Assembly: GCF_000187995.2 (NCBI RefSeq)
Contig: NZ_AEUW02000001.1
Coordinates: forward strand, 1,116,001 to 1,180,000
Reading direction: 5' to 3'
DNA length: 64,000 nucleotides
Source of the DNA: Streptococcus macacae NCTC 11558
GTDB lineage: Bacteria; Bacillota; Bacilli; Lactobacillales; Streptococcaceae
This document shows positions 22,668 through 25,766 of the stretch, piece after piece. The stretch's first letter is position 1; every line of letters begins with the position of its first letter. The position numbers and the translations under genes are program-made. Under the pieces are notes generated by a model. The model saw nothing but the letters and a program-made list of their open reading frames with translations, did not search any database and was not told the DNA's origin.

Positions 22668-22881
22668 ATTTCATCTCTATCTATAAGGGCCTATAGGAAA
22701 AAGCAAAAAATATTATTAGAAAGAAGAAAAACTCTATTAAGACTAATTTTGTCTTTTCTGCAATCAAACTCATATTGAGATACAGGCTAAGCTGAATTAC
22801 CAGATATCTGCCTACTTTATTTGCTAACGTCCATTATCATGTAAAAGTTTTCCCATAATAATAAACTAGAATTTTCAGTAT

Positions 22882-23895
22882 CTATTGAGCGATCTTAGCA
22901 AAATATTCCAATGTACGAATAAGTTGAGCTGTAAAACTCATTTCATTATCATACCATGCTACTGTCTTAACAAGATAAACATCACCATCAGTTGTTACTT
23001 CAGTCTGCGTTGCATCAAAAACAGAACCATGTGTATCACCAATAATATCTGTCGAAACAATTTGATCTTCATTATAAGCAAAGCTTTCAGTTGCAGCAGC
23101 TTTCATTGCAGCATTGACCTCTTCAACAGTCACGGGCTGTTTGACCACACTGACCAACTCTGTCAGGGAGCCTGTTGGAGTAGCTACGCGTTGAGCATGG
23201 CCTTTTAAAAGACCATCAAGCTCTGGAATAACCAATCCAATTGCTTTTGCAGCACCAGAAGAAGTTGGAACAGTGTTAACGGCGGCTGCACGCGCACGGC
23301 GAAGATCCCCTTTGCGATGAGGACCATCCAAAATCATTTGATCACCAGTATAACTGTGGATTGTTGTCATTGTACCAACAGCGATACCAAAAGCCTTATT
23401 CAAAGCATCCGCCATTGGTGCTAAACAATTTGTCGTACAAGAACCTGGAGAAATAACTGTCTCTTCACCTGTTAATGTTTCATGATTCACATTATAAACA
23501 ACAGTTTTCACATCGTTGCCGCCTGGTGCTGTAATAATCACTTTTTTAGCTCCGCCATTTACATGCAAATGTTTTTCAGCTTTTTTTCTAGTAGCAAAGA
23601 ATCCTGTAGCCTCCAATACAATGTCAACACCTGATGAAGCCCAATCAATCTTTTCTGGGTCAGACTCTTGTGTTACTTTAACAAATTTTCCATTAACAAG
23701 AAAACCATCTTCTTTAACTTCCACTGATCCATCAAACTTCCCTTGTGTACTATCATATTTCAATAAATGAGCCAGCATTTCAGGATCTGTCAAATCATTT
23801 ACATGAGTAATTTCAACTCCCTCAACATTTTGAGCTCGGCGCAAGGCCAAACGTCCAATACGACCAAAACCATTAATACCAATTTTTACAACCAT
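22882..23895 (-). CDS. Glyceraldehyde-3-phosphate dehydrogenase, atypical paralogue
   Basis: 337 aa type I GAPDH. The N-terminal [11 protein letters not shown] binds NAD, VNDLTDP after strand 2 fits NAD rather than NADP, and SCTTNCLAP holds the catalytic Cys, with His in [10 protein letters not shown]. It should oxidise glyceraldehyde 3-phosphate to 1,3-bisphosphoglycerate. From memory, the main streptococcal GAPDH reads ISGASCTTN, VPNSTGAAKAIG and RVPVPTGSVTEL here; this protein reads [21 protein letters not shown] and [12 protein letters not shown], so it looks like a second, divergent copy. Divergent from an Rrf2 regulator, with overlapping promoters and a 185-nt leader. The role may be redox or anaerobic tuning (inference). 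Confidence 0.85.
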
Positions 23896-24080
23896 TTTAC
23901 GAACCTCCTACACAAAATATTAAAATTAAACAATTTGACGACTGAATCGTTCTGAACAAATCTTCTCTTGCAATAACTTATCTTGTTCATTCTTTTGCAG
24001 TGAATAATCTCAATAATGATCACACTCCCTTTCAGCTACTTCAGAAACATCTTTCTAAGTAAATGATCTTCAAGCCAGTT
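23896..24080 (-). promoter_or_regulatory. Long mRNA leader of the gap paralogue
   Basis: Transcription from the promoter at 24087 would leave about 185 nt ahead of gap. The leader holds a 7-bp helix (TGAACAA with TTGTTCA) around a 23-nt internal segment and a small CGA/TCG hairpin near 23940. It has no T-box motif and I recognise no riboswitch class. Confidence 0.35.
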
Positions 24081-24086
24081 TATTTT

Positions 24087-24136
24087 ATCATAGCTCTTCT
24101 TAATTACTTTACAAAGCAACCAAAAAAAGTTATAAT
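24087..24136. promoter_or_regulatory. Overlapping divergent promoters of gap and the rrf2 regulator gene
   Basis: Plus strand: TTTACA (24108-24113), 17 bp, TATAAT (24131-24136). Minus strand: TTGTAA (24114-24109), 16 bp, TATGAT (24092-24087). The two -35 hexamers occupy the same bases, so both promoters cannot be bound by RNA polymerase together. Confidence 0.6.
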
Positions 24137-24141
24137 AATAC

Positions 24142-24172
24142 GACAAAAAATATAATAGAGATATTTTTTGTC
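24142..24172. promoter_or_regulatory. Perfect 12-bp inverted repeat at the rrf2 start site
   Basis: GACAAAAAATAT, a 7-base loop and ATATTTTTTGTC begin right at the predicted start point of the regulator gene. It could be its own operator or a hairpin at the very 5' end of the mRNA. Confidence 0.6.
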
Positions 24173-24212
24173 CCTATTAGGAATTATAAAACTTTTTTTG
24201 GAGAATGTCAAT

Positions 24213-24686
24213 ATGAAATTATCATCCGGTTGGGAACAATCTGTTTATGTTTTGCTAATACTATCACAACTTCCTAAAAATAAGACAATGAATTCACAAT
24301 CTTTAAGTGAGCGTTTAGGTACTTCTCACTCTTATCTAAAGAAAATCATTAAATTGCTGGTTAATGAGGGGTTAATCCTATCAACACCAGGAAAATATGG
24401 AGGTTTTTCATTAGCTAGATCTTTAGAAGATATTACTTTTTATGACATATTTACTGCTATTGAGGGAAGAGGAAAAATTTTTGCCAGCCAGCGGCTACTT
24501 AAAAAATTTCTAGGTGATAAGGAAGGCAAAAAAGCTAAACAATGCGCCGTTACAGACTCATTAGATATCATTGAAAAGACTCTAGTTTCTACACTATCAG
24601 CAATTACATTGTCAGATGTACTTACTCAAATAAAATCTAATTATAGTTTAGAAGAACTTAATAAATGGGTAGAAAAAAACGTATAA
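24213..24686 (+). CDS. Rrf2-family transcriptional regulator without cluster cysteines
   Basis: 157 aa from the ATG at 24213, behind GGAGA. The winged helix covers about residues 1-75, with SLSERLGTSHSYLKKIIKLLVNEG and the wing GKYGGFSLAR typical of the Rrf2 family, and the dimerisation helix follows (about 85-105 and 125-145). NsrR and IscR ligate an Fe-S cluster with three cysteines; here there is only one cysteine (in KQCAV), so that mode is unlikely and a CymR/YwnA-like, protein- or thiol-controlled mode is more probable. It is divergent from the gap paralogue, its likely target besides itself. Confidence 0.85.
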   Translation: MKLSSGWEQSVYVLLILSQLPKNKTMNSQSLSERLGTSHSYLKKIIKLLVNEGLILSTPGKYGGFSLARSLEDITFYDIFTAIEGRGKIFASQRLLKKFLGDKEGKKAKQCAVTDSLDIIEKTLVSTLSAITLSDVLTQIKSNYSLEELNKWVEKNV

Positions 24687-24762
24687 CTATAAGTTATTAA
24701 TCAAGACAGATGAATACTTGTTTACTTATAATTAATATACACAGTATGATCGAAGAATAAAA

Positions 24763-24826
24763 AGTTCATAAGCTTGCCTTTTGTAAGATAACTCTTTCAA
24801 TTTTTTTACTGGAAAGCTTATGAACT
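24763..24826. repeat. 13-bp perfect inverted repeat with a 38-nt loop
   Basis: AGTTCATAAGCTT (24763-24775) and its exact complement (24814-24826) flank 38 bp. It sits between the convergent rrf2 and nnrD genes, so it may be a long-loop terminator or a remnant of a small mobile element. The remainder of the 24687-24932 gap holds no gene. Confidence 0.5.
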
Positions 24827-24932
24827 ATTATTATAATGCTATTATAGAAAAATAAAGTTAGTCTTACTGTTTGCCATACAAATAGACTGTCTGTCGTCCT
24901 AATGATATTGTTAGTGTCCTTTATGGCTCTCT

Positions 24933-25766
24933 TTAATCACTCATTTCCTTCATCACTCTTGCGATTTCTGTGCTGATCCTTGTTGGCAAAACGACATAGG
25001 CTTGCTTACTTAGTTGTTCTGCAATATAGGAATGGAGAAAAACAGCAGCGGCGGTAACATCAAAGCGATCGAGATGGAATTGGGCAACAAAACCTGCAAT
25101 CATACCTGCCAAGGTATCTCCCATACCGCCTGTTGCTTGATAGGGACCGCCAACGCAGATCTTTCCGACCTTGCTGTTCTGATACAGCTTAGTCTGATGA
25201 GATTTTGCGACCAGCACTGTCCCCTTTGGAAATGCGGCTAACGCCGTTTGTGTGGCTTCTTCTGTCTGCTTGGAAATCGCCAGTCCAGACAGTCTTTCCC
25301 ATTCTTTTTGATGAGGAGTGAGAATGATCTGCTCACTTGGCCAGCCAGCTGATTTTCTTTTAGCTAACAAATTAAGAGCAGAACCATCTATTACTAAAAT
25401 CTGCTGTGCTGTGATAGACTGCCAAAGCAAGTCAAAGGTTTGTCGAGCCAAATCATCTTCAGCCAAACCCGGTCCTATAAGAATCACATCTGCTGCGGCT
25501 ATTTGTTCTGTTAAGCGATCTTTTTCTGCCATATCAAAGGCCATAGACTCAGGTAAACGGCTGTGGAGAGCCGTGATATTGTCTTTATGGGTAGCGACTG
25601 TCACCAAACCCGCTCCGCTATTAACACAAGCCGAAGCCGCCATGATGATAGCACCGCCGTAAGGATAGTTGCCGCCAATCAAAAGGACACGGCCAAAAGT
25701 CCCCTTGTGACTGTCAAGAGGACGCGGCTGAATAATCTTTTTTACTAAGACTTTATCAATAATCAT
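24933..25766 (-). CDS. nnrD: ADP-dependent (S)-NAD(P)H-hydrate dehydratase
   Basis: 277 aa, the kinase-like YjeF C-terminal domain as a free-standing protein (the epimerase NnrE half is absent). It repairs hydrated NADH and NADPH using ADP. Visible motifs are [22 protein letters not shown] near the middle and [14 protein letters not shown], the nucleotide-binding and catalytic Asp loop. The start ATG overlaps the folD stop (ATGA), so the two are coupled. folD-nnrD neighbours are common in streptococci, linking one-carbon and cofactor metabolism. Confidence 0.92.

Follow-up and report, generated by a model that had tools for sequence, protein, structure and literature searches.

A predicted Rrf2 operator between a second GAPDH gene and a divergent one-cysteine regulator in Streptococcus macacae

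Thiol-reactive poisons are well known to hit GAPDH, and for a bacterium a separately regulated spare GAPDH would be a direct means to keep glycolysis running. In ArsJ systems, a GAPDH makes an unstable acyl-arsenate, which is removed by an exporter; both the exporter and the regulator of these systems belong to families other than EamA and Rrf2. Among Rrf2 proteins, the Fe-S members IscR and NsrR carry three cluster-binding cysteines, while HypR uses two cysteines. SifR of Streptococcus pneumoniae is a monothiol Rrf2 protein that recognizes an N9 dyad and is displaced from DNA when quinones act at its sensing cysteine, according to an excerpt of PMC9218516. For Lactococcus lactis GapA, PMC8551700 reports a low level in static culture and a higher one with aeration and respiration; it also cites Willemoes 2002 for GapA as an auxiliary GAPDH, Solem 2003 for its expression under stress, and Rochat 2012 for the H2O2 resistance conferred by its overproduction. 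No description of an Rrf2 protein beside lactococcal gapA, or of any regulator of GapA stress expression, was found in the open-access literature searched.

The window, by which we mean the whole 64,000-nucleotide stretch of DNA analyzed, comes from a 1.92-Mb genome that carries a GAPDH paralogue gene, gap2 (22882–23895, minus strand), linked to a divergent rrf2 gene (24213–24686, plus strand), just as the first-pass annotation had described. The product of gap2 is a type-I GAPDH scoring above the cut-off of TIGR01534, and it is 75% identical to the housekeeping copy located at G000:C1:1867928. The 157-residue product of rrf2 was assigned to the Rrf2 superfamily by PF02082 (98.2 bits versus a cut-off of 30, E = 5e-28) and TIGR00738 (91.6 versus 73.3), and it contains a single cysteine, C111. 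This residue is invariant among 10 aligned orthologues, and its equivalent is present in all of the 23 named loci that we treat as close Rrf2 relatives, a set from which the matches of E = 1e-23 and weaker (L088–L144) were left out. A second cysteine occurs elsewhere in nine of the 23 relatives, with two as the maximum per protein, so that the clade as a whole cannot be called "monothiol". The IscR and NsrR models scored the window protein far below their cut-offs, which together with the single cysteine places it outside the Fe-S class, as had been claimed. A lone cysteine speaks against Fe-S sensing and is in line with a monothiol sensor of the SifR kind.

A promoter scan of positions 22800–25200 gave 14 sites with matches of at least 9/12, where 8.5 ± 2.8 were expected from shuffled sequences. 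The rrf2 gene is preceded by TTTACA-17-TATAAT (24108–24136, plus strand; 11/12), of which the hexamers and spacing are the same in G036, Streptococcus sp. ZJ373, and a Streptococcaceae MAG. For gap2, a leftward TTGACA-17-TATAAT was located at 24183–24211 on the minus strand, with TTGACA at 24211–24206 and TATAAT at 24188–24183. It is the only 12/12 site in the scanned region, covers the rrf2 ribosome site, and stops one base short of the rrf2 ATG. The first-pass annotation had drawn a different picture, in which the −35 hexamers of gap (TTGTAA) and rrf2 (TTTACA) occupy the same bases on opposite strands and thereby let the polymerase serve one gene at a time. These hexamers are indeed present and overlap, but the leftward TTGTAA/TATGAT pair (24114–24087) matches at only 9/12, which is the level of noise, and it was rejected as the gap promoter in view of the 12/12 site on the same strand. 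That layout is probably wrong, and a toggle through shared −35 hexamers falls with it, as the likely promoters have −35 boxes that are separate from each other. The arrangement suggested by the sequence is that the rrf2 and gap2 promoters likely face each other, with the predicted operator between their −10 boxes. Judging from the usual spacing, transcription would start near 24176 (minus strand) and 24143 (plus strand), and the gap2 and rrf2 transcripts would therefore overlap. Mutual interference of the two promoters is still likely, though not by way of shared −35 boxes.

The regions upstream of rrf2 in the relatives have in common a 27-bp dyad, TATTAGAGA-N9-TCTCTAATA, whose consensus is TATTAGAGA-N9-TCTCTAATT with A about equally common at the last position. 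Its counterpart in the window, TAATAGAGA-N9-TCCCTATTA at 24153–24179, is the likely Rrf2 operator. By using a matrix trained on 19 regions that exclude the window, this place was scored at 29.9 bits, while the next best place in the 64 kb reached 6.1 and the best places in 60 random 64-kb sequences averaged 9.2 with a maximum of 19.2. Leave-one-out recovered 19 of 19 training sites with scores from 15.3 to 35.2, of which the weakest two (15.3 and 17.6) lie below the random maximum. Each of the 23 named loci, 18 of which belong to the training set, has a site above 15 bits next to rrf2; leave-one-out is the fairer test, because the other five are S. mitis-type relatives almost identical to one in the set. 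All hits above 15 bits in these loci lie between rrf2 and its divergent neighbor, except one in S. peroris (L075:7546–9670), where a second predicted operator of 23.1 bits is found between rrf2 and the lacA-lacB-gap2 genes; gap2 may therefore be under Rrf2 there although it is not divergent. Two predicted operators between rrf2 and the divergent neighbor were observed in Lentilactobacillus dabitei (L087:6875 and 6935), Lactococcus nasutitermitis, and L. hircilactis (L068, L069). The −10 box of the leftward gap2 promoter ends 3 bp before the 27-bp operator, and exactly this distance recurs in 11 of 17 regions, window included. The remaining distances are 2 (one region), −3 (two), 10 (one), 16 (one), and that of L. 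nasutitermitis, measured to its second site. These 17 were taken from 27 distinct regions, omitting three from Staphylococcus and those of S. mitis type that are nearly identical.

Attention had earlier been drawn to a perfect 12-bp inverted repeat at 24142–24172 (arms 24142–24153 and 24161–24172), which overlaps this operator. The repeat exists and exceeds chance, as four perfect repeats of this kind occur in the window (at three separate places) versus none in each of eight Markov sequences. It is not the conserved element, however: its left arm finds no 12/12 match in the regions of 19 relatives (8 to 11/12 at any position), whereas the 27-bp dyad, centered 9 bp to the right of the repeat center, recurs in relatives. 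The repeat was hence rejected as the operator. Since it is more symmetrical than the imperfect window dyad (24 of 31 positions self-complementary versus 18 of 27), Rrf2 may bind to both elements. A search of the whole genome with the operator pattern gave one match with 0 mismatches, at 24153–24179, which is no independent test because the pattern had been widened to fit that site. Four further matches had 3 mismatches, against five matches for the reversed-pattern control, and an operator regulon elsewhere in the genome was rejected.

Because one predicted operator lies just past both −10 boxes, Rrf2 very likely controls both gap2 and rrf2 itself. This much of the original proposal, a regulator toggling gap together with itself in response to a signal other than a cluster, is in keeping with the sequence once the shared −35 boxes are set aside. 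We give somewhat better than even credence to a model in which a thiol-sensing Rrf2 protein keeps a spare GAPDH repressed, and an electrophile or other toxicant lifts the repression. An Rrf2 dimer bound to 24153–24179, past the −10 boxes of the facing promoters, would repress rrf2 and gap2 together. A thiol-reactive or otherwise toxic small molecule would then act on Rrf2, probably at C111, and free the operator; we infer this release by an electrophile because SifR works so. The inducer would be the kind of compound that the relatives would expel through an EamA or MFS-type exporter controlled by the same operator, and gap2 would keep GAPDH activity going as long as the housekeeping enzyme is blocked. 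Deletion of the exporter and of most of luxS would have left the window genome with the repressor, the operator, and the spare enzyme.

The distribution of the genes bears on the inducer. A close Rrf2 protein was detected in 10 of the 197 genomes of the genus and a close gap2 in four, all of them among those 10; the probability of this co-occurrence is 3.45e-6 by counting, with phylogeny ignored. The EamA exporter (E up to 1e-40) was found in nine of the 197, and these coincide with the nine Rrf2 carriers other than the window genome. As the divergent neighbor of rrf2, the 23 named loci have EamA in 16 cases, gap in five (L068, L069, L081, L085, and L083, whose contig ends inside gap), and an MFS-type transporter in two. 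The MFS-type calls were made by inspection, and in a plasmid relative that place is taken by an annotated MFS gene; the best Rrf2 copy on plasmids, 49% identical, adjoins an annotated MFS transporter. A gap gene occurs within the locus in eight of the 23, and together with an exporter in three (L065, L066, and L075); 13 have EamA but no gap, and five have gap but no EamA. Counterparts of the rrf2 locus, bearing either exporter or enzyme, were found in Streptococcus, Lactococcus, Staphylococcus, Bacillus, and Lentilactobacillus. The exchange of exporter and GAPDH isozyme behind one operator suggests that the inducer damages GAPDH and can also be exported. The first-pass annotation knew of no described system with this pair, and no description of it was found in the open-access literature searched; the pair itself is not unique, being present in eight of the 23 loci, including the presumed lactococcal gapA. 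In an empty-site comparison, the neighboring gene matched 16 of 21 genomes, and the nearest other was 59% identical and thus too distant.

The fullest set of genes was observed in Streptococcus sp. ZJ373 (L065, genome G073) and in G036, where the order is rrf2, divergent EamA, a luxS paralogue, gap2, a cmoA-like gene, and a methyltransferase gene. A luxS paralogue between EamA and gap2 was located at L034:10981–11472 and L033:9204–9635, and a cmoA-like gene with a class I methyltransferase gene behind it, next to EamA or gap2, at L034:12528–13920, L038:7471–8875, and L033:6695–8099. The S. mitis-type loci that were read have neither luxS nor gap2; here cmoA-like and methyltransferase genes, or what remains of them, come after EamA, beside lac genes. 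In L035 and L037–L041 of this type, lacA/lacB-like genes come after the rrf2/EamA unit and adjoin further lac (tagatose) genes, so that the unit looks inserted there. The cmoA-like product is about 30% identical to annotated CmoA and was placed outside that family by TIGR00740 (122.5 versus a cut-off of 193.3). It has Gln aligned with a CmoA arginine, which we take to be the carboxylate-binding R199.

The window retains a trace of this cassette. A decayed 3′ end of a luxS paralogue, from codon 112 to the stop, lies at 23926–24063 on the minus strand inside the gap2 leader, with two in-frame stops, a 2-codon gap, and small deletions. It matched the luxS paralogue of G073 at E = 5.6e-7 in tblastn (a small subject), and its DNA alignment scored 52.5, while 200 shuffles reached 27 at most. 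The relic is just upstream of gap2, where the intact luxS of ZJ373 ends as well. Searches that detect EamA and the cmoA-like gene in other carriers gave no close copy of either in the window genome. From the position of the decayed luxS end, the window locus is apparently a deletion remnant of an EamA-luxS-gap2-cmoA-like-methyltransferase cassette. The long leader with its luxS relic could lower gap2 translation; an Rfam scan of 23700–24900 for structured RNA gave no match up to E = 0.1.

Such a cassette invites a different explanation, in which gap2 is the self-resistance gene, encoding an insensitive target, of a small cassette that makes and exports a GAPDH-inhibiting metabolite. The cmoA-like protein and the methyltransferase would make the metabolite, luxS would recycle the methyl-donor by-product, EamA would export the product, and gap2 would replace the poisoned enzyme, leaving the window genome as an immune non-producer. 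The full gene set of ZJ373 speaks for it, as does that of G036 with its broken cmoA-like gene, and so does the alternation of exporter and spare GAPDH under one operator across genera. The state of the frames points the same way: cmoA-like is open in three of eight close carriers of the genus (G073, G106, and G108) and contains stops or is split or truncated in five (G036, G065, G095, G129, and G137), while EamA and Rrf2 are open in all eight. Against it, the Staphylococcus, Bacillus, and Lactococcus loci examined lack cmoA-like, methyltransferase, and luxS genes of the cassette type, and in S. mitis-type genomes cmoA-like genes or remnants occur without gap2. Beyond the genus, a sample of 395 genomes of the order gave only weak matches to cmoA-like (E = 7e-6 and weaker). 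No GAPDH self-resistance of this kind, and no paper uniting luxS, cmoA, GAPDH, and EamA in Streptococcus, was found in the open-access literature searched. We regard this explanation as unlikely. On plasmids, the three regions viewed around cmoA-like relatives differ in context; on a Burkholderia stagnalis plasmid (L192:5084–10944), a relative (42%) lies in line with a DUF692 gene, a radical SAM gene, and a further methyltransferase gene, an arrangement reminiscent of a biosynthetic cluster.

A wider and equally doubtful idea is that the Rrf2 clade defines a mobile resistance regulon, spread across genera and directed at a GAPDH-poisoning natural compound not yet described. The answer to the compound would be either export (EamA or MFS) or a spare GAPDH, with one operator for both; some streptococci would make it by means of cmoA-like, methyltransferase, and luxS, and the window genome would again be an immune non-producer.

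In an unrooted FastTree phylogeny, nine Rrf2-linked GAPDHs including gap2 clustered apart from 18 others with a local support of 0.952. These 18 non-linked copies came from the loci at hand and are no sample; the housekeeping copy of G036 and the partial linked copy of L083 were left out. The sequences thus place gap2 in common ancestry with the Rrf2-linked lactococcal GAPDHs. Two substitutions, T213S and Y321F, are fixed in all nine linked enzymes and occur in none of the 18 others; T213 is presumably the phosphate-site threonine and Y321 the tyrosine near the nicotinamide (Bacillus T208 and Y317). Loss of the proton relay was considered as the reason for a second GAPDH and rejected, as the relay residue is the tyrosine of WYDNE (human Y314) rather than Y321, and the WYDNE tyrosine is kept. 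The phage-protein family phrog_21942, whose function is unassigned, matches gap2 at 22885–23895 with E = 6.7e-149, and GAPDH genes are therefore present in some phage or prophage records.

These enzyme features also bear on the reading of gap2 as a peroxide-resistant GAPDH for oxidative stress, under an Rrf2 protein that senses oxidants. The H2O2 resistance reported in connection with L. lactis GapA (cited in PMC8551700) and the conserved C111 agree with it, and the linked enzymes of L. hircilactis, L. taiwanensis, and L. cremoris contain CTTNS, with Ser replacing the second active-site cysteine. S. aureus GAPDH has the same Ser and is reported in PMC5504048 as more sensitive than the C. diphtheriae enzyme, with another residue compensating. 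In human GAPDH, passages of PMC6325607 and PMC10132988 name T153, C156, T177, and Y314, the proton-relay residues, as those behind oxidation sensitivity. Their equivalents T154, C157, T178, and Y315 are all kept in gap2, which sets it apart from oxidation-insensitive enzymes, so that H2O2 resistance by the known route is not predicted. An exporter as the commonest partner of rrf2 (16 of 23) does not fit peroxide either. We consider this reading quite improbable.

The gap2/rrf2 pair could also be a decaying leftover without present function, as its neighbor genes are gone and the luxS relic lies upstream. However, the two reading frames are whole, as are the two promoter-like sites and the operator, and dN is far below dS, at 0.07–0.09 versus 1.6–2.2 for gap2 (against three orthologues) and 0.15–0.31 versus 1.6 or saturation for rrf2, which makes decay very unlikely. 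Least credible of all is arsenate efflux of the ArsJ type, in which GAPDH would make the unstable acyl-arsenate and the exporter remove it: GAPDH and exporter do occur together in three of 23 loci, and EamA shows a sub-threshold match to triose-phosphate transporters (20.9 bits versus 30), but gap2 scores below the cut-off of the ArsJ-associated GAPDH model NF033735 (304.6 versus 450), most loci have one gene without the other (13 and five of 23), and the window genome lacks a close EamA.

Returning to the model of a thiol-sensing repressor and a spare GAPDH, comparison with the described systems shows both likeness and difference. Like gap2 in the cassette, the ArsJ-associated GAPDH is an isozyme able to stand beside an exporter, but gap2 falls below the cut-off of its family model. 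HypR of Staphylococcus aureus is an Rrf2 repressor of thiol stress, as proposed for the window protein, with TGTAA-N9-TTACA as its own dyad (PMC9218516, in excerpt); the NCBIfam HypR model gave the window protein 27 bits versus a cut-off of 180. SifR, with C102 as its sensing cysteine, and the window protein, with C111 as its one cysteine, may be alike in this respect, and the N9 spacing of the dyad is the same. The half-sites differ, however, between TGTAA-N9-TTACA for SifR and TATTAGAGA-N9-TCTCTAATA for the window clade, which distinguishes this operator from that of SifR, and the target genes of SifR differ from those predicted here.

The nearest counterpart is lactococcal. In L. cremoris, the Rrf2-linked gap adjoins a gene that we take for clpE and two zinc-ribbon genes that we take for Llmg_0524/0526, and by this gene order it is apparently gapA. 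Llmg_0524/0526 are named in the title of PMC4628341. The lactococcal linked gap and gap2 belong to the same clade, and each faces a related rrf2 across the same operator with a similar promoter layout. The linked enzymes of L. cremoris, L. taiwanensis, and L. hircilactis, with CTTNS, are 77–78% identical to gap2, while that of L. nasutitermitis, with CTTNC, is 89% identical. If the model holds, Rrf2 would be the regulator for the stress expression of lactococcal GapA.
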